Positions 25,101 through 34,825 of a stretch of 64,000 nucleotides of DNA are shown here, in pieces. The notes beneath the pieces were generated by a model. It saw only the letters and a program-made list of their open reading frames with translations. It was not told where the DNA came from and searched no databases. The translations under genes were made by a program, and so were the position numbers. The stretch comes from an uncultured Winogradskyella sp. (lineage in GTDB: Bacteria; Bacteroidota; Bacteroidia; Flavobacteriales; Flavobacteriaceae). The DNA lies in NCBI GenBank assembly GCA_913055905.1, contig CAJXLB010000004.1, positions 62,001 through 126,000 of the forward strand, read 5' to 3'. Each line of letters begins with the position of its first letter. Position 1 is the first letter of the stretch.

Positions 25101-26351
25101 ATGCTAGTCTACCTAAGATTATTAAAAGAAAGTTTTTCTTTTGCGATAACAGCGCTGAATAACAATAAACTCAGGACCTTTCTTTCGCTTTTAGGCGTAA
25201 CAGTTGGTATTTTTTCCATAATAGCTGTGCTCGCTGCTGTAGATTCATTGGATAGAAGTATCAGGGAAAACTTGGATGGTATTGATACCAATACCATTTA
25301 CATCATGAACATCTCTTTTGGACCTACTGATGTCCCCAAATGGAAGCGGGATAATTTTGATCCTATTTCTTATGACGACTACAATTTTGTTAGGAAAAAC
25401 ATATCCGATATTGAGGCTTCTGCCTACAGTATTTTTGGCTTAAGGGAAACGGTTAGGTACCAAGCGGAAACCTTAGGAGGTGTTAATGTAGCAGCGGTAA
25501 CACATGGTATTTATGACATAGAGCGACTTAAATTGGGCAAGGGGCGGTTTTACACCGAGGTAGAATCAGAGACAGGCTCGCCCGTAGTGGTTATAGGCTA
25601 TCGTTTAGCTGAAAACCTCTTTGGCAAAGCAGAGCCTTTGGGCAAGGAGGTGCGAATTTTTGGAAGAAAATTAAAGGTCATTGGTGTTTTGGAAAAATAC
25701 GGTGACGGGATTGGAGACTCACCAGATGATACTGTTTATCTGCCGGTTAATTTTGTTCGTGGTATTAGAAATACAGGGAAAAATGGCTATCCTACTGCTA
25801 TTGTGATTAAACCAAAATCATATGTAGATATTGATGCGTTTGAGGGCTTATTAACGCAGAAATTTAGAATACATCGCGGCGTTAAAGCTGGTGAGATAAG
25901 CGATTTTTTTCTATCCAAGCTTTCGGGCTTTGTCAATTTAATCGATGGTATAATTTCTACTATGAATGCCATTGGGTGGATGCTCAGCGGATTTTCCTTA
26001 CTTGTGGGAGGATTTGGTATTGCCAACATTATGTTTGTGAGTGTTAAGGAACGGAATAATATTATCGGAATTCAAAAATCCCTGGGTGCTAAGAATAGAT
26101 TCATTCTTTTTCAATTTCTTTTTGAAGCGATCATCCTTGCACTTCTTGGCGGACTCGTTGGTCTTGGATTGGTTTACCTGATAACGGTATTGGTAAATCT
26201 AACTATAGAGGATTTTACTTTTGTTCTGTCCTTTACTAACATCGCTATAGCAATTGGTATATCTAGTTTTATAGGGTTGGTTTCTGGTGTTATTCCAGCC
26301 TTGTCTGCGTCACGGCTCGATCCAGTAGAGGCCATTAGAACGGGAATGTAA
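25101..26351 (+). CDS. FtsX/MacB-type ABC transporter permease (copy 1)
   Basis: 416 residues. N-terminal membrane helix after LRTFLSLLGVTVGIFSIIAV, a periplasmic MacB-PCD domain (about 50-260), and three membrane helices of the FtsX domain (about 285-405; NIMFVSVKERNNIIGIQKSLGA). MacB-like permeases act by mechanotransmission to move lipoproteins, peptides or drugs out of the periplasm. No ATPase gene is adjacent, so the energising subunit must be elsewhere. The next gene is a close paralogue. Confidence 0.9.
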   Translation: MLVYLRLLKESFSFAITALNNNKLRTFLSLLGVTVGIFSIIAVLAAVDSLDRSIRENLDGIDTNTIYIMNISFGPTDVPKWKRDNFDPISYDDYNFVRKNISDIEASAYSIFGLRETVRYQAETLGGVNVAAVTHGIYDIERLKLGKGRFYTEVESETGSPVVVIGYRLAENLFGKAEPLGKEVRIFGRKLKVIGVLEKYGDGIGDSPDDTVYLPVNFVRGIRNTGKNGYPTAIVIKPKSYVDIDAFEGLLTQKFRIHRGVKAGEISDFFLSKLSGFVNLIDGIISTMNAIGWMLSGFSLLVGGFGIANIMFVSVKERNNIIGIQKSLGAKNRFILFQFLFEAIILALLGGLVGLGLVYLITVLVNLTIEDFTFVLSFTNIAIAIGISSFIGLVSGVIPALSASRLDPVEAIRTGM

Positions 26352-26427
26352 TTATAATTTCAATTTAAGTTTTTTTAACAGATTTCTTTCTTAAACCAAT
26401 TATCTTTAGCCTTAATAATTGGGTACG

Positions 26428-27681
26428 ATGTTGGTATATATTCGTTTATTGAAAGAAAGCTTCTCTTTTGCTTTTAGTGCTCTGGCCAATAATAAGCTTA
26501 GGACTTTTTTGTCATTGCTGGGCGTTACTATTGGTATTTTTTCCATTATAGCCGTTTTGGCGGCCGTAGATTCCTTGGATAAAAATATTAAAGACCAGCT
26601 AAGCGCCTTGGATAGCAATACGATGTATTTGTCCAACTTTAGTTTTGGACCCACAGAGGTGCCGCGCTGGAAATGGCAAACTTTTGACAAAATATCTTAC
26701 ACAGAATATAAGTATTTGCAGGAGTCCTTATCACAAGTTGAAGAAATGGCCTATCAACTTTTTGTGCCAAGAGAAAGTATTAGATACGAATCCGAATTGA
26801 TTCAAAGCGTAAATACAGTCGTGGTTTCTAGCGAGTTTTCAGATATCCAGCGACTGGAGTTCGAAAAAGGCCGCTTTTACAATGAAATGGAATCTAATGC
26901 TGGAAGGGCCGTGGTGGTTATTGGTTCTGAAATTGCAAAGAATCTGTTTGGAGACATTGATCCCATAGGTAAAAAGGTGAGGCTTTATGGTCAAAAATTT
27001 ACAGTTATCGGTGTAGTAAAAAAGGAAGGGTCTGGACTTTTTGGCGACAGCAATGATATTTCAATCTTCTTACCATCAAATTTTGTGAGAACGCGATATG
27101 GCGAAAACGTGTCATCCATGATTCCGGTAGTTATTATTAAACCAAAATCTGGTGTTGATGCCGATGAGGTAGAGGCAGAATTAGTGCAATTACTGAGAAA
27201 TAAGCGCGGCATTAAACCCGATGAAATCAATACGTTTTTTATTAGTGTGGTTGAAGGTCTTCAAAGCTTTATCGATGGTATCATTGCAAGCATGAACACC
27301 ATAGGTTGGGTGATTAGCCTTTTTTCTTTACTGGTAGGAGGTTTCGGAATTGCCAATATTATGTTTGTTAGTGTAAAAGAGCGCACTAATATTATTGGTA
27401 TTCAGAAGTCCTTAGGCGCAAAAAATAAATTTATTTTATTTCAATTTTTGTTTGAAGCGGTTATTCTGGCTGTTGTTGGTGGAATTGTGGGTCTGGTGAT
27501 GGTGTGGTTTGGTACTCTCATCGCCTCAGGATTTACAGAGGACTTTGAATTTGTGCTATCTTTTAAAAATATGCTTATTGGATTTTCAATATCCTCGTTT
27601 ATTGGATTGATTTCGGGCGTTGTTCCAGCCATTTCAGCTTCACGGCTAGATCCGGTTGAAGCCATAAGAACTGGGATGTAA
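26428..27681 (+). CDS. FtsX/MacB-type ABC transporter permease (copy 2)
   Basis: 417 residues with the same layout as the gene before it and long identical stretches, such as LVGGFGIANIMFVSVKER and the closing ASRLDPVEAIRTGM. This is clearly a tandem duplication; the periplasmic domains have diverged more than the membrane parts. The two copies could form a heterodimer on one ATPase. The start at ATG 26428 is chosen by alignment with copy 1 (MLVY(L/I)RLLKESFSFA); an upstream TTG at 26419 is less likely. It ends directly against the convergent GAF gene. Confidence 0.9.
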   Translation: MLVYIRLLKESFSFAFSALANNKLRTFLSLLGVTIGIFSIIAVLAAVDSLDKNIKDQLSALDSNTMYLSNFSFGPTEVPRWKWQTFDKISYTEYKYLQESLSQVEEMAYQLFVPRESIRYESELIQSVNTVVVSSEFSDIQRLEFEKGRFYNEMESNAGRAVVVIGSEIAKNLFGDIDPIGKKVRLYGQKFTVIGVVKKEGSGLFGDSNDISIFLPSNFVRTRYGENVSSMIPVVIIKPKSGVDADEVEAELVQLLRNKRGIKPDEINTFFISVVEGLQSFIDGIIASMNTIGWVISLFSLLVGGFGIANIMFVSVKERTNIIGIQKSLGAKNKFILFQFLFEAVILAVVGGIVGLVMVWFGTLIASGFTEDFEFVLSFKNMLIGFSISSFIGLISGVVPAISASRLDPVEAIRTGM

Positions 27682-28249: not shown

Positions 28250-28798
28250 TTGAAATCATTCCTTTTAAAATACAAACTTGTTTTTAAGTTCATCATCACC
28301 TTTGTAGCTGTATATTCCGTTCTTACACTTGGGTATAATTACTACCTATCTATGTCCAGCGGTGCTTTATACTATCCAGATTTTGCTACTAACTTGGTAG
28401 CCAGGCAAACGGATGCGCTTCTGGAAAGTGTGGGTTATTCTACTGTAATGGAACCACACCCAAATGAGCCTTCGATTAAAATTATTATTAATGGAAAATT
28501 TGTAGCCACGATAGTAGAGGGTTGTAATGCCATTAGTATCATTATTTTGTTTTTGTCCTTTATTTTTGCGTTCGCATCAAGTGTGAAATCAACACTTTTT
28601 TACGCCTTTGCAGGAAGTATAATTATCTACGCTTTTAATCTCATAAGAATTGTAATCCTGGCAATTGGATTGTATCACTATCCTTGGCGCAGGGAAGTCC
28701 TTCATACGGTCATTTTCCCATTGTTAATTTATGGAACGGTTTTCTTGCTTTGGATGATTTGGGTTAATCGTTTCACTAAATCCAAACAGCATGTCTAA
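28250..28798 (+). CDS. xrtF: Exosortase family protein XrtF
   Basis: 182 residues, polytopic membrane protein. Exosortases are transpeptidase-like enzymes that process C-terminal PEP-CTERM-type signals at the membrane; XrtF is the flavobacterial branch. The catalytic triad residues are visible: Cys92 in VEGCNAIS, Arg133 in NLIRIVILA and His152 in VLHTVIFP. The start is TTG at 28250, giving the expected short N-terminus before the first membrane helix; no ATG is nearby. It overlaps the next gene by 8 bases. Confidence 0.92.
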   Translation: MKSFLLKYKLVFKFIITFVAVYSVLTLGYNYYLSMSSGALYYPDFATNLVARQTDALLESVGYSTVMEPHPNEPSIKIIINGKFVATIVEGCNAISIIILFLSFIFAFASSVKSTLFYAFAGSIIIYAFNLIRIVILAIGLYHYPWRREVLHTVIFPLLIYGTVFLLWMIWVNRFTKSKQHV

Positions 28799-29219
28799 AT
28801 TGGTAAGATATGGTTTGGTTGTTTTGCTGTTTCTGGTCCTGGTTGCTGTGAGAGCCTTTGAGGATGTCCTATTTTATGATCCGTATTTGTCCTTTTTTAA
28901 GAAAGACTATTTATATATAGACAGTCCCAGACGCGAAGTGGCAAAGCTCGTTGCGTTCACCAGTCTCAGGTATTTAATAAATACAATAGCTTCTTTAGGC
29001 ATTATTTATTTATTGCTTAAGGATAAAGGCATGCTGAAATTATCCATTTTGCTTTATTCTGGAGCATTTATACTATTGATTATACCCTTTTTATATTTTG
29101 TTATTAATCCGAGACAGGAAGATTACTATCTTTTTTTTAATGTAAGGCGCTTCTTGATTCAGCCTTTATTTCTAATTCTCTTCTTACCGGCATTCTATTA
29201 TTTTAAGCTCAATCGTTAA
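28791..29219 (+). CDS. Exosortase F system-associated membrane protein
   Basis: 142 residues with about four membrane helices (starting at 5, 62, 84 and 120) and the typical N-terminal segment RAFEDVLFYDPYLSFFK. This family is found next to xrtF in Flavobacteriia and probably works with it; biochemical role unknown. Its ATG lies inside the xrtF end (8-base overlap), supporting cotranslation. Confidence 0.88.
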   Translation: MSKLVRYGLVVLLFLVLVAVRAFEDVLFYDPYLSFFKKDYLYIDSPRREVAKLVAFTSLRYLINTIASLGIIYLLLKDKGMLKLSILLYSGAFILLIIPFLYFVINPRQEDYYLFFNVRRFLIQPLFLILFLPAFYYFKLNR

Positions 29220-29257
29220 GGCTTTGGTAATTTGTGTATGGAATTTTTTCAAATTGT

Positions 29258-29265
29258 TACCTTTG
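29258..29265 (+). promoter_or_regulatory. Promoter -7 element directly before the HYC_CC_PP gene
   Basis: TACCTTTG, an exact TAnnTTTG match only 4 bases before the ATG at 29270. If used, transcription would begin at or next to the ATG, giving a leaderless or near-leaderless mRNA. Confidence 0.55.
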
Positions 29266-29269
29266 CATT

Positions 29270-29680
29270 ATGAAAGCATCGCTTTTACATAAGGGGTTAT
29301 CAACTGTACTGTCCGTATTGGTGCTCTTGTCAACGTTGTCCGTAACGATAGAAAAACATTTTTGTGGCGGACAACTTGTAGATGTAGCCGTATTCTCGAA
29401 GTTAGACCGATGTGGCGGTGATATAGACGATATGCCTACTTCTGACACTTTGAAATCATCCTGTTGTAAGGATGAGGTTGACGTCATAGAAGGCATAGAT
29501 GATCTTAATGTTACCGTTTTTGAGGATGTTGAAATTAAGCTCCAAAAGTTTGCGGTAGTTTTCTTTATATCCTATTATCTTCATTCTGATGGAGTTTCAA
29601 ACCCTATACCAAGTGGGTATTACAAACCTCCAAACCTTGTTAAAGACATTTATATCCTTAACGAAACCTATTTAATTTGA
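29270..29680 (+). CDS. HYC_CC_PP family protein
   Basis: 136 residues from the ATG at 29270. A signal-peptide-like hydrophobic start (about 8-25) is followed by the motifs that name the family: H-F-C (His30-Phe-Cys32, as HFCGG), a Cys-Cys pair (Cys65-Cys66 in SSCCKD) and a Pro-Pro (YKPPN) near the C-terminus. An extra CGG lies at Cys48. The conserved Cys/His suggest periplasmic metal binding or redox work; the function is not established. It sits just upstream of an HMA-MauE protein, a TonB receptor and an HMA protein. An ATG 36 bases earlier (29234-29236 region start) is less likely because it would precede the promoter. Confidence 0.85.
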   Translation: MKASLLHKGLSTVLSVLVLLSTLSVTIEKHFCGGQLVDVAVFSKLDRCGGDIDDMPTSDTLKSSCCKDEVDVIEGIDDLNVTVFEDVEIKLQKFAVVFFISYYLHSDGVSNPIPSGYYKPPNLVKDIYILNETYLI

Positions 29681-29755
29681 TTCTAAAGTTGCTTTAAGGC
29701 TTTACGGTTAAGCCTTTTATCTATCCTTTTTTAGTAATCAAATTATACAATACCA

Positions 29756-30484
29756 ATGACACATACATATAAAGTTACAGGCATGACCTGTAGCGGCTGC
29801 AAAGCTTCGGTGGAGTCTTCCCTAGGTTCCTTAGATGGCATCGAGGATGTTTCTGTAAATCTGGAGGAGTCAACTGTAAAATTGACCATGTCAGAGCACA
29901 TCCACTTGAAGGAATTGCAAAATGCATTAGCCGACAAATATCAAATTTCAGAATTACCAGAAAAAAACGTCTTTAAACAAACGACAGCAGAGCCACAGAA
30001 AGAACAGAGTGAGCTTAGGCAGCTGTTTCCCTTATTTCTAATTTTTGGTTACATACTGATAGCCTCAGTTTTGTTAAACATGAATCCTTGGAGTACCACG
30101 GACTTTATGTTGGATTTCATGGGACTCTTTTATATTGTTTTTAGTTTTTTCAAACTACTGGATTTAAATGGGTTTCCAAAGAGCTTTAGCATGTACGATC
30201 CCTTAGCCAATCGCATACCTGTTTATGGTTGGATTTATCCTTTTATTGAGGTATTACTTGGGTTAATGTTCTTATTCCGATTTAGAATTGATGTAGCTCT
30301 AGTTTTAACCGTGGTAGTTCTGGGTATAACCACTTTTGGTGTTACCAAAGCGCTATGGAGTAAAAAAACCATAAAATGCGCTTGTCTAGGGACTGCGTTA
30401 AATCTACCGATGACCAAGGCTACATTTATTGAAAATACAATTATGATAGTCATGGCCATCATCATGTTATTTAAAATTCTTTAA
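29756..30484 (+). CDS. HMA domain fused to a MauE/DoxX-like membrane domain
   Basis: 242 residues. The N-terminal heavy-metal-associated domain (about 1-68) has the metal site GMTCSGC (Cys12, Cys15). After a polar linker come four membrane helices (about 85-242) of the MauE/DoxX redox-associated type, with a conserved-looking CAC pair (Cys208, Cys210 in IKCACLGTALNLPMT). It could pass metal ions or electrons across the inner membrane, but this is inference. It ends 3 bases before the TonB receptor ATG, so the two are cotranscribed. Confidence 0.86.
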   Translation: MTHTYKVTGMTCSGCKASVESSLGSLDGIEDVSVNLEESTVKLTMSEHIHLKELQNALADKYQISELPEKNVFKQTTAEPQKEQSELRQLFPLFLIFGYILIASVLLNMNPWSTTDFMLDFMGLFYIVFSFFKLLDLNGFPKSFSMYDPLANRIPVYGWIYPFIEVLLGLMFLFRFRIDVALVLTVVVLGITTFGVTKALWSKKTIKCACLGTALNLPMTKATFIENTIMIVMAIIMLFKIL

Positions 30485-30487
30485 AAG

Positions 30488-32722
30488 ATGAGGCAACTAG
30501 TTATATTTATGATATTAGCGGTGTCTGTGCTTCCAGCTCAAGATCAGTTGAAAGGATTGGTTTTGGAAGCGAGCACGGACAAAGAACTGCCCTTACAAGG
30601 AGCCAACATTTATTGGTTGGGATCATCCGTTGGAACGGTATCAGCAGAAGATGGTACTTTCGCGCTCCCTTACAAGTTTTCGTTCAATAGATTGGTCATT
30701 AGCTATGTTGGTTTTAAAACCGATACACTAATCGTTAATGAGAATAAATTCATTAAGCACGTTTTGCAACCATCGGAACAGTTGGATGCTGTGAAACTAA
30801 CATCGCGAAAGCAGTCTACGATGAAGTCGTATTTAAAAGCTGCAAATACTTTTACTGTGAGTAATGATGAATTGTTAAAAGCAGCTTGTTGTAATCTTTC
30901 AGAAAGTTTTGAAACCAACCCTTCTATCGATGTTAATTTTGCCGATGCCGTTTCGGGAACGAAGCAAATAAAGATGTTGGGTTTAAATTCGCCCTACATC
31001 TTAATAACAACAGAAAATGTTCCGGCTATCCGAGGTGCCTCTCAGGCTTACGGCTTAAGTTTTATTCCGGGTACATGGGTTGAGAGTATCCAAATTACAA
31101 AAGGCGCAGGGAGTGTGGTCAATGGTTTTGAGAGTATTGCGGGCCAGATTAATGCGGAACTTGTAAAGCCACTTACAGATGATAGACTTTTTGTCAATGC
31201 CTATGCTGGTATTAATGGACGGTTGGAATTAAACACCCATATTAATCAACAGGTGTCAGATAAATGGAGCAGTGGCTTGTATATCCATGGGAATCTTAGA
31301 GAACAGAAATTTGATAGAAACGATGACAGTTTTTTGGATGTTCCTCTGAAGGAGCAAATCAACATAATGAACAGATGGCAATACACAGATTCTGAAAAGG
31401 GACTGGTTAGTTTTATAAATCTCCGATACTTAAATGATAATACACAGTCTGGTCAGGTTGGTTTTGAACCAGAACGCGATAGGGGAACTACGAACTTTTG
31501 GGGAAGCGAAATAGATACAGAACGTTATGAGATTACCACAAAATTGGGTTATGTTAACCCAGAAATACCATACCAAAGTTTAGGTTTTCAAACGGCATTG
31601 AGCTACCATAACCAAGAATCGTATTTTGGTCTTAATACTTATGATATTGAGCATACCAGTTTTTACTCAAACCTGGTTTACAATAGCATTATTTCAGATT
31701 CTAGGCACAAAATTAAAACAGGTTTAAGTTTTACGTACGATAGTTATGATGAGTTGGTCAATACTACAAGTTATGATCGAATAGAAAACTCTTTTGGAGG
31801 CTTTTTTGAATATTCCTATGACAACTTGGATAAGCTCACATTAACGGCTGGTATTAGGGCCGATCAACATAATAGGTTCGGTTTTTTCATTACGCCACGC
31901 TTACATGTAAGATATACGCCTTGGGAAAAATCAGCATTTAGGGCATCAGTTGGGAGAGGTGTAAAAAGCGCCAATATTTTCGCAGAAACCCAGAACATGT
32001 TTTCAAGTTCTAGACAGATTAATATTATCGACTCTGGAGGGAAAATCTATGGATTAGACCCAGAGATTGCGTGGAATTATGGTGTAAGTTATTTGCAAGG
32101 CTTTAACCTGTTTAACAGAAAAGCAGACATAACCTTAGATTTTTACCGTACGGAGTTTCAAAATCAGGTGATTACAGATTGGGAGAATCCGTTTGAAATT
32201 TCGTTTTATAATTTACAGGGCGAGAGTTTTGCCAATAGTTTTCAGTTTGAATTTAACTATAACGCTTTTGAACGGTTTGATTTAAGAATGGCATACAAAT
32301 TCTACGATGTACAAACCGATTATTTAAGCGGCCGATTGGACAACCCCTTAATTCCGCGGCATCGAATTTTTGTCAACACAGCTTATGAAACCGAATTAAA
32401 TGCAAAGGGAGCTCAATGGAAGTTTGATGCTACTTATAATTGGTTGGGTAGACAACGTTTTCCTAATACGGATTTAAGTCCTGAAGCGTTTCAACTGGGA
32501 GAATTTTCACCAACTGTTGGTACACTCAACCTACAAGTGACAAAAGTCTTTTCCCCAAATTTTGAAATCTATGTTGGAGGCGAAAACGTCACGGATGTAA
32601 GGCAACCCAATCCAATATTAAGTCCCGATAATCCGTTTGGTCCAAATTTTGACAGTAATTTTGTCTATGGTCCCATTTTTGGAAGTATGTATTACGCAGG
32701 ACTTCGATTTAAAATTAATTAA
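30488..32722 (+). CDS. TonB-dependent outer-membrane receptor, probably for a heavy metal
   Basis: 744 residues: signal peptide, carboxypeptidase-regulatory-like domain (about 22-105, LKGLVLEASTDKELPLQGAN), plug (about 130-225) and a 22-strand barrel ending in aromatic/hydrophobic GLRFKIN. The plug holds an unusual Cys134-Cys135 pair (KAACCNLSESF). With HMA proteins on both sides, copper or a similar metal complex is the likely substrate, imported with TonB energy; this is from context. No SusD partner is present, so it is not a glycan system. Confidence 0.9.
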   Translation: MRQLVIFMILAVSVLPAQDQLKGLVLEASTDKELPLQGANIYWLGSSVGTVSAEDGTFALPYKFSFNRLVISYVGFKTDTLIVNENKFIKHVLQPSEQLDAVKLTSRKQSTMKSYLKAANTFTVSNDELLKAACCNLSESFETNPSIDVNFADAVSGTKQIKMLGLNSPYILITTENVPAIRGASQAYGLSFIPGTWVESIQITKGAGSVVNGFESIAGQINAELVKPLTDDRLFVNAYAGINGRLELNTHINQQVSDKWSSGLYIHGNLREQKFDRNDDSFLDVPLKEQINIMNRWQYTDSEKGLVSFINLRYLNDNTQSGQVGFEPERDRGTTNFWGSEIDTERYEITTKLGYVNPEIPYQSLGFQTALSYHNQESYFGLNTYDIEHTSFYSNLVYNSIISDSRHKIKTGLSFTYDSYDELVNTTSYDRIENSFGGFFEYSYDNLDKLTLTAGIRADQHNRFGFFITPRLHVRYTPWEKSAFRASVGRGVKSANIFAETQNMFSSSRQINIIDSGGKIYGLDPEIAWNYGVSYLQGFNLFNRKADITLDFYRTEFQNQVITDWENPFEISFYNLQGESFANSFQFEFNYNAFERFDLRMAYKFYDVQTDYLSGRLDNPLIPRHRIFVNTAYETELNAKGAQWKFDATYNWLGRQRFPNTDLSPEAFQLGEFSPTVGTLNLQVTKVFSPNFEIYVGGENVTDVRQPNPILSPDNPFGPNFDSNFVYGPIFGSMYYAGLRFKIN

Positions 32723-32742
32723 ACATAAAAACAACTAATAAA

Positions 32743-33111
32743 ATGAAACAAGTACTAATTATCTTTCTTTTAAGTTTGGGAACACTAGCGTTTGCCCAAA
32801 ACAAAAATGCTAAAGCAAGTATTGAGGTCGATGGTGTTTGCGGTATGTGTAAGGAACGTATCGAGAAAGCAGCCATTAGAACCAAAGGTGTAAAATCGGC
32901 GGTTTGGAATATTGACACGCATGAGCTTAAACTTATCTTTGACGAACGTAAAACCGATATTAAGGAGATTTCAAAACAGATTGCTGCAGTAGGTCATGAT
33001 ACTAAGGAAATTAAGGCAACGGAAGAAGCCTACATGTCCGTGCATGCCTGTTGTAGATATCGCGATAAGGATGTTGTAAAAGACCATGAAGGAGAAAAAA
33101 ACAACAATTAG
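32743..33111 (+). CDS. Secreted heavy-metal-associated (HMA) domain protein
   Basis: 122 residues: signal peptide ending near residue 19 (LAFAQ) and a single ferredoxin-like HMA domain (about 25-92) with the metal site GVCGMC (Cys33, Cys36). After the domain comes HACCRYRD, a His-Cys-Cys site (His101, Cys103, Cys104). It is probably a periplasmic metal chaperone serving the TonB receptor encoded 20 bases upstream. Ends at a strong bidirectional terminator. Confidence 0.87.
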   Translation: MKQVLIIFLLSLGTLAFAQNKNAKASIEVDGVCGMCKERIEKAAIRTKGVKSAVWNIDTHELKLIFDERKTDIKEISKQIAAVGHDTKEIKATEEAYMSVHACCRYRDKDVVKDHEGEKNNN

Positions 33112-33120
33112 AAGAACTAA

Positions 33121-33151
33121 AAAAGCCTGAAATAATTTTCAGGCTTTTTTT
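33121..33151. terminator. Bidirectional terminator between the HMA gene and groEL
   Basis: Perfect 10-bp stem AAAAGCCTGA/TCAGGCTTTT with an 8-base loop, T-run on the plus strand and T-run on the minus strand. Confidence 0.9.
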
Positions 33152-33172
33152 ATGTTGAAGACTAATGCAGGA

Positions 33173-34825
<1,653 letters not shown>

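Follow-up and report, generated by a model that had tools for sequence, protein, structure and literature searches.

HYC_CC_PP heads a conserved, probably copper-related gene set of Bacteroidota and is followed by a predicted stop-to-start mRNA stem

A 64,000-nucleotide stretch of the genome of an uncultured Winogradskyella species (contig CAJXLB010000004.1, positions 62,001 to 126,000; henceforth the window) encodes on one strand a HYC_CC_PP protein (henceforth HYC), a membrane protein combining HMA and MauE domains (HMA-MauE), a TonB-dependent receptor and a secreted HMA protein. Comparative analysis supports a conserved gene cluster with conserved cysteines in its products, a HYC gene that heads copper units, and a covarying mRNA stem that joins the HYC stop codon to the region of the next start codon. 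We hold it to be rather probable that this is a copper-homeostasis operon of the Bacteroidota in which HYC acts mainly in cis, by means of the stop-to-start stem. A previous examination of the window (the sequence-only reading) had described the four genes in this order on one strand, the last three with gaps of 3 and 20 bases, and had assigned a paired-cysteine site to each product. The open reading frames (ORFs), with gaps of 75, 3 and 20 bases along the set, and the family matches agree with this description, and all the sites are present: HFC and CC in HYC, CSGC and CAC in HMA-MauE, CC at residues 134–135 of the receptor, and CGMC and HACC in the secreted protein. The first protein belongs to family NF047658 (HYC_CC_PP; 92.1 bits against a curated cut-off of 28) and its gene has one place in the window's own genome. 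The second contains both MauE (PF07291, 63.4 bits) and HMA (PF00403, 51.5 bits) domains within one protein, the gathering cut-offs being 27 and 24.8; the receptor matches the plug (PF07715) and barrel (PF00593) families above cut-off, and the last protein matches the HMA domain.

The gene-neighborhood survey for which the sequence-only reading had called shows that the clustering is conserved in related genomes. KAACC was among the search patterns by which 80 named loci were found, and their Cys-Cys pair is in part a product of this selection; the 79 with a receptor were retained, the receptor of the remaining one being cut off. The named loci closest to that of the window are from Winogradskyella. 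Receptors were counted if longer than 500 residues, and HYC was accepted up to 4 kb upstream. The order HYC ... receptor, HMA is retained in 75 of the 79 loci; of the other four, two start within the operon, L128 carries its HYC beyond the 4-kb limit and L151 is without HYC. The secreted HMA gene adjoins the receptor gene in 79/79 loci. HYC itself was found in 73 of 99 relatives, including all 60 of 60 genomes of the same genus (the window's own counted), and in 74 of 247 genomes sampled across the phylum, 69 of these over the cut-off. Within the genus it occurs in two settings, namely that of the window and beside genes for CusA-type pumps and P1B ATPases. Outside the Flavobacteriaceae, where 43 receptor loci were fetched of the 45 listed with strong scores, HYC is found upstream of the receptor in 28 and HMA next to it in 22; 17 loci have both and 33 have at least one of the two. 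Gene order shifts in these organisms, many having HYC, HMA, receptor, and HYC stays in front. Named records show the order HYC, receptor, HMA in Bernardetia, the order HMA, receptor, second receptor, CusA in Haliscomenobacter, and the order hypothetical protein, receptor, HMA in Parabacteroides, the hypothetical protein not being scored as HYC. Ten of the outside loci have neither HYC nor HMA, and several of these have a small cysteine-rich upstream ORF, in some cases ending in WQPP; we regard these as leads only. The whole region is syntenic in many named loci, and the clustering could in principle be mere inherited synteny of the GAF-XrtF-GroEL region of Flavobacteriaceae. This is exceedingly improbable: 10 of the 79 named loci keep the trio or part of it in stretches lacking both the XrtF partner and GroEL, and an explanation by synteny only is refuted outside the family, where 33 of 43 loci have HYC or HMA next to the receptor and the gene order is changed. 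The four-gene set is a real, conserved unit.

The mRNA between the HYC stop codon and the following gene is predicted to form a stem. The window gap (29672–29765) folds at -17.5 kcal/mol with z of -3.67, and 0/200 shuffles are equally stable. Gaps compared by eye show two complementary arms, the first beginning with the HYC stop codon and the second lying shortly ahead of the following start; the arm sequences differ between genera. Dinucleotide shuffling gave a mean z of -1.63 for 121 HYC gaps vs -0.32 for 550 control gaps; 45% of the 121 HYC gaps are significant at p 0.05, as against 13% of the other gaps and 12% of 26 XrtF-partner gaps. When the arms are slid along the sequence, pairing in HYC gaps peaks at the stop codon and the next start, and 433 controls are flat. 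When arms are swapped between loci, the native pairs of 111 collapsed gaps average -8.53 vs -4.23 kcal/mol for the swapped ones, a difference reached in 0/5000 permutations. The same holds, each with 0/5000, for 77 gaps of Flavobacteriaceae (-8.88 vs -4.52), 34 gaps from outside that family (-7.72 vs -4.31) and 16 gaps in which the next gene is not a labelled partner (-8.19 vs -4.45). Controls, consisting of 200 gaps drawn after collapsing 556, show a slight effect (-4.47 vs -4.20, reached by 60/2000 permutations; the sister run kept 109 of 122 HYC gaps). RNAalifold on eight Winogradskyella sequences found 4 of 21 pairs with changes on both sides. The gap after HYC is also longer (medians 69.5–107) than other operon gaps (0–24). 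An intrinsic terminator between HYC and the next gene was considered and is not conserved, and Rfam over 29000–33400 gave 8 matches at E up to 1, all below the gathering score and none in the HYC gap.

A gene follows HYC on the same strand within 350 bases in 149 of 152 cases. The neighbor upstream of HYC lies on the opposite strand in 62 cases; it shares the strand of HYC at a distance above 70 bases in 27 and at up to 70 bases in 60, the XrtF partner accounting for 38 of these 60. Immediately ahead of HYC within one unit, HMA-MauE was seen twice, HMA once and the receptor never. HYC is thus the first of the copper genes, though genes of other kinds may precede it. In two loci (L043, L070) a pair of HYC genes face away from each other, each heading its own unit. 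The sequence TAnnTTTG, which we take to be the Bacteroidetes -7 promoter box, occurs in 96 of the 151 stretches (150 bases each) examined upstream of HYC, and 79 of the 96 have it 10–19 bases from the end of the start codon; the box is found for 38/77 GAF genes, 13/168 TonB genes and 1/50 HMA-MauE genes; a strict -33 box was not found in the window.

HYC proteins have few conserved residues besides those at the end: across 122 of them H30, C32, C48, C65, C66 and P121 are conserved at 96–99% and P120 at 90%. The C-terminus forms a block of nearly fixed length. Among the 133 proteins having both CC and PP, the distance from the start of PP to the end is 17 or 18 residues in 101 and the CC-to-PP spacing is 54–57 in 104. 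The last two residues are LI in 93 and II in 17 of 152 HYC proteins, together 110. The stop codon is TGA in 105/152 vs 197/1339 other genes of at least 200 residues, and TGAT stands at the stop in 98/152 vs 78/1339. ATT serves as the last codon in 71 Flavobacteriaceae rows, more than the 56% background for Ile would give, and selection on the RNA may therefore account for part of the LI ending. A Flavobacterium group (L131, L142, L144, L145, L149, L150, L154 and L155) constitutes a natural variant of the block, with the ending NAPP...LYA or similar in place of PP...FLI and with PP 14–16 residues from the end.

The genes that follow HYC elsewhere include those for ACR_tran (CusA-type) pumps, a multicopper oxidase, MbnP (twice), a DUF3347 protein, an AraC regulator and a P1B ATPase; a Pfam scan of 10 such proteins found a copper link in 8 and none in 2. 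The P1B ATPases of four loci (L098, L123, L128 and L141) carry CPC, YN and MxxSS, which are presumably the Cu(I) signature of these enzymes, and Pfam confirmed HMA and ATPase domains for one of the four. HYC and the receptor of L241 are separated by an AraC-type regulator and an ATPase of this kind. AraC-type regulators with an N-terminal CxxC (NMVCxRC) follow HYC in three loci (L241:2891-3481, L041:6322-6900 and L070:6994-7677); that of L041 has the HTH as its sole Pfam match, and these proteins could possibly be copper sensors. Two further cysteine-rich products were noticed in named loci: a 106-residue ORF after the secreted HMA gene that reads like a four-helix copper-storage protein (L098:12779-13099), and a small protein with a YHS-like stretch, read by eye, after the receptor (L206:8317-8661). 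The sequence-only reading had proposed copper or a similar metal. Since HYC precedes CusA-type pumps, a multicopper oxidase and MbnP genes, the metal of the operon is likely to be copper. HMA domains and cysteine pairs bind several metals, and the HMA parts obtain weak MerP and ZntA-type scores, as would be expected if the same operon served another soft metal such as silver, mercury, zinc or cadmium. This seems unlikely to us, as the partners are P1B ATPases with the Cu(I) signature, multicopper oxidase and MbnP, and no mercuric reductase or ZIP/Zur was noticed in the neighborhoods read, in which no search was aimed at those families. The heme-copper oxidase was considered as the consumer of the metal and set aside as non-discriminating, PF00115 being found in 236/247 sampled genomes; one genome (G332) has the receptor and no PF00115 match.

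In the mechanism that we propose, copper would change the speed at which the ribosome finishes the fixed PP ... FLI-TGA block of the exported nascent HYC chain, which bears HxC, C48 and CC. If the ribosome were held at the stop codon of HYC, it would occupy the start of the 5' arm and thereby open the stem, and this opening would set the translation of the downstream genes. The receptor with the plug Cys-Cys would then probably carry copper across the outer membrane and the periplasmic HMA protein would probably take it over, with HMA-MauE as a potential optional partner in the inner membrane. We infer ribosome stalling, copper as the signal and transport by the receptor. The response could have either sign: efflux and oxidase units argue for copper-on, and the receptor for copper-off.

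The sequence-only reading had instead assigned HYC to the periplasm as a carrier, and a true periplasmic metallochaperone serving the secreted HMA protein, with the stem as a translational-coupling or RNA-stability element and no sensing, is a possibility that we take seriously at a low probability. HYC does have a signal-like N-terminus and invariant ligands of metal-binding type, and a chaperone beside an HMA protein would make sense. Against such a role, HYC precedes very different copper units, lies before but never directly after the receptor, has gaps that differ from the 550 control gaps, and yields no confident AlphaFold fold with 76 sequences (pLDDT 63.9). Because HYC leads many copper units and a hairpin ties its stop to the next start, a cis-acting sensor is more likely than a periplasmic carrier. 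A double role of HYC would be compatible with all the points counted against the metallochaperone.

Several observations weigh against the cis-acting sensor and the operon built around it. The lack of a confident HYC fold is one of these. HYC has a same-strand gene at 70 bases or less upstream in 60 of 152 cases and so does not invariably come first. Only a minority of the HYC gaps (45% of 121) are singly significant at 0.05, in 18 of 111 gaps the swapped arms pair on average as well as the native ones or better, the RNAalifold covariation term within Winogradskyella is unfavourable (+1.06), and the HYC-like upstream ORFs of L202 and L204 lack a strong stem. The AlphaFold model of the receptor resolves the barrel and is not confident in the plug, so the Cys-Cys pair cannot be placed in a structure. 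DUF2946, which we take to be PF11162 and the family of the leader proteins CruR and CutF discussed below, does not appear among the listed matches (25 of 33 families) of 76 HYC members, and the window HYC matches 0 families at E 10. Finally, PP lies 16–17 residues before the end of HYC, too far from the stem for a ribosome that stops at PP to touch it; on this account we favour a delay at the very end of the frame, with PP in the tunnel. The preference for TGA would fit a delay at the termination step. A more specific proposal, which we offer tentatively as a possibility well short of even, is that HYC is a Bacteroidota-specific copper-sensing nascent leader that stalls at TGA with the 17-residue PP ... 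FLI segment in the tunnel, and that the stem wires it to a distinct subfamily of outer-membrane copper receptors in which the Cys-Cys pair of the plug holds the metal.

A fair evaluation of the receptor Cys-Cys uses receptors found by profile (outside the family 43 were fetched of 45 listed) rather than by the KAACC patterns. In such a set, all 47 receptors scoring above 470 bits, 46 of them fetched (46/46) and one the window's own, have the pair at 134–135, and these are the only conserved cysteines in the 47. Of 14 relatives scoring 374–461 bits none has the pair, and none has HYC or HMA adjacent in the stretch read. His 267 and His 461 of the receptor are conserved at 94% and 89%. Both cysteine pairs are conserved at 98–100% in 99 secreted HMA proteins, and GMTCxxC and CAC occur in 34/34 HMA-MauE proteins. 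By inference the receptor and the secreted HMA protein are well suited as putative parts of a copper route through the outer membrane and the periplasm. They are what survives of a path from outer to inner membrane drawn in the sequence-only reading, in which the parts given to HYC as a carrier and to HMA-MauE as the end point are not supported. HMA-MauE occurs in just 27 of the 79 named loci (18 before the receptor and 9 after the HMA gene), and in 4 of the 79 a P1B ATPase of the Cu(I)-export type stands instead in its place directly before the receptor. The same distribution bears on the idea that the set is a thiol-redox system in which the MauE side and the cysteine pairs mature the receptor, metals being incidental: MauE is tied to redox by its family name and every member has a Cys pair, but with HMA-MauE in so few loci and with copper proteins as partners we consider it improbable. 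The uptake role suggested earlier for the system is not favoured by the results over defence.

The coordinates of the set and its elements are collected in Table 1. Directly upstream of HYC lie genes for the exosortase XrtF (TIGR04128) and its partner membrane protein (TIGR04127) at 28250–29219; the partner is near the trio in 39 of the 79 named loci. Farther upstream are two tandem MacB-type permease genes, read by eye (25101–27681), and downstream of the set, on the opposite strand, is GroEL.

Table 1. Genes and sequence elements of the HYC-headed set, in positions of the window
Feature	Position	Strand	Remarks
-7 box match, TACCTTTG	29258-29265	+	fits TAnnTTTG; 4 bases before HYC start codon
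HYC_CC_PP (HYC)	29270-29680	+	136 aa; signal-like helix, HFC, C48, CC, C-terminal PP block to YLI; stop TGA
Last 17 codons of HYC (PP ... YLI)	29627-29677	+	PP-to-end length nearly fixed in family
5' stem arm	29673-29688	+	includes last two codons and stop codon of HYC
Inner hairpin AAGGCTT/AAGCCTT	29696-29716	+	inside stem; fold of window gap
3' stem arm	29729-29745	+	ends 10 bases before HMA-MauE start codon
HMA-MauE membrane protein	29756-30484	+	242 aa; CSGC in HMA, CAC in MauE part; optional member
TonB-dependent receptor	30488-32722	+	744 aa; N-terminal CarbopepD_reg_2, plug, beta-barrel
Plug Cys-Cys codons, in AACCNLSESFETN	30887-30892	+	residues 134-135
Secreted HMA protein	32743-33111	+	122 aa; signal ending FAQ; CGMC, HACC

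Little is known of copper intake and sensing in Bacteroidota. If HYC is a nascent-chain sensor, one short gene would explain post-transcriptional copper control of uptake, efflux, oxidase and regulator units throughout the phylum, and the stem would offer a precisely defined RNA switch, open to testing, in organisms whose translation begins without the help of Shine-Dalgarno sequences. Direct tests for copper can be made on the receptor subfamily that the plug Cys-Cys identifies.

Among known systems, the TonB-dependent receptors OprC (TIGR01778) and CrtA are likewise linked to copper, and the available part of the CrtA report describes that protein as lacking conserved cysteines, unlike the window receptor (PMC12914433). 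An OprC-like receptor of Bizionia, a different protein from that of the window, is listed in the accessible part of another report (PMC11213822). The window receptor differs from OprC in having the plug Cys-Cys, in the absence of a match to TIGR01778 (TonB copper receptor) at E 0.1, and in the absence of the CxxxM-HxM copper site of OprC, having only Cys 134–135 and no Met at +4. The best TIGR01778 match of its own genome is a different receptor elsewhere (G000:C4:141017-142918; 250 bits, cut-off 472), which may be the OprC-like one of flavobacteria. A PDB sequence search (query A1) returned 15 sequences, for siderophore, colicin I, SusC/RagA-type or unnamed proteins, none named a copper receptor.

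The name of NF047658 records motifs, and we found no paper using HYC_CC_PP. The portions available to us of the literature on copper uptake and response in Bacteroidota, CutF and arrest peptides contained no description of this locus, and within the literature searched we found in print neither a leader role for HYC_CC_PP nor the stop-to-start stem nor a receptor subfamily with the Cys-Cys pair. RAPP/RGPP leaders of copper genes are reported as missing from Bacteroidota in the accessible part of one study (PMC12992588). Two nascent-chain copper sensors of Proteobacteria, CutF and CruR, come nearest to HYC. The closest parallel in layout is CutF of the cutFOG operon of Rhodobacter capsulatus, presented in the part of its report available to us as an exported cysteine protein; when copper delays its completion, the stem that covers the following ribosome site is opened (PMC9973294). 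On that same partial basis CutF is like HYC a small exported cysteine protein with a proline motif near its end, encoded by a cis-acting first gene, with a stem-loop at the ribosome site of the next gene across a short gap, and it heads copper genes including RND and TonB genes (PMC9973294). HYC in turn lies upstream of copper genes on the same strand and, in computed folding, has a stem covering the start region of the next gene. It differs from CutF in having HxC, C48 and CC instead of CxxxC, a fixed C-terminal block and the preference for TGA. CutF-like proteins are reported in Bacteroidota as 19% of 5,334, an un-normalised figure, with RND, TonB and other neighbors, the filter being PP within 15 residues of the end (PMC9973294, available part). 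We compared HYC with that set by the published filter and description: PP is at 15 residues or less in 16 of 152 HYC proteins, and that of the window, at 17, fails the filter. CruR, the leader of bp2923-bfrG in Bordetella pertussis, precedes a TonB receptor gene whose expression copper ends via Rho, according to the accessible part of its report; like HYC it is an upstream ORF with a cysteine motif and a C-terminal PP before the gene for a TonB-dependent receptor (PMC9426467). There CruR is described as having CXXC, RAPP three residues from its end and Rho-dependent termination in a 162-bp gap (PMC9426467), whereas HYC has neither RAPP nor CXXC and has a start-site stem instead. By apparent analogy, and without membership of these families by sequence, HYC resembles the layout of CutF combined, in the window, with the cargo of CruR.

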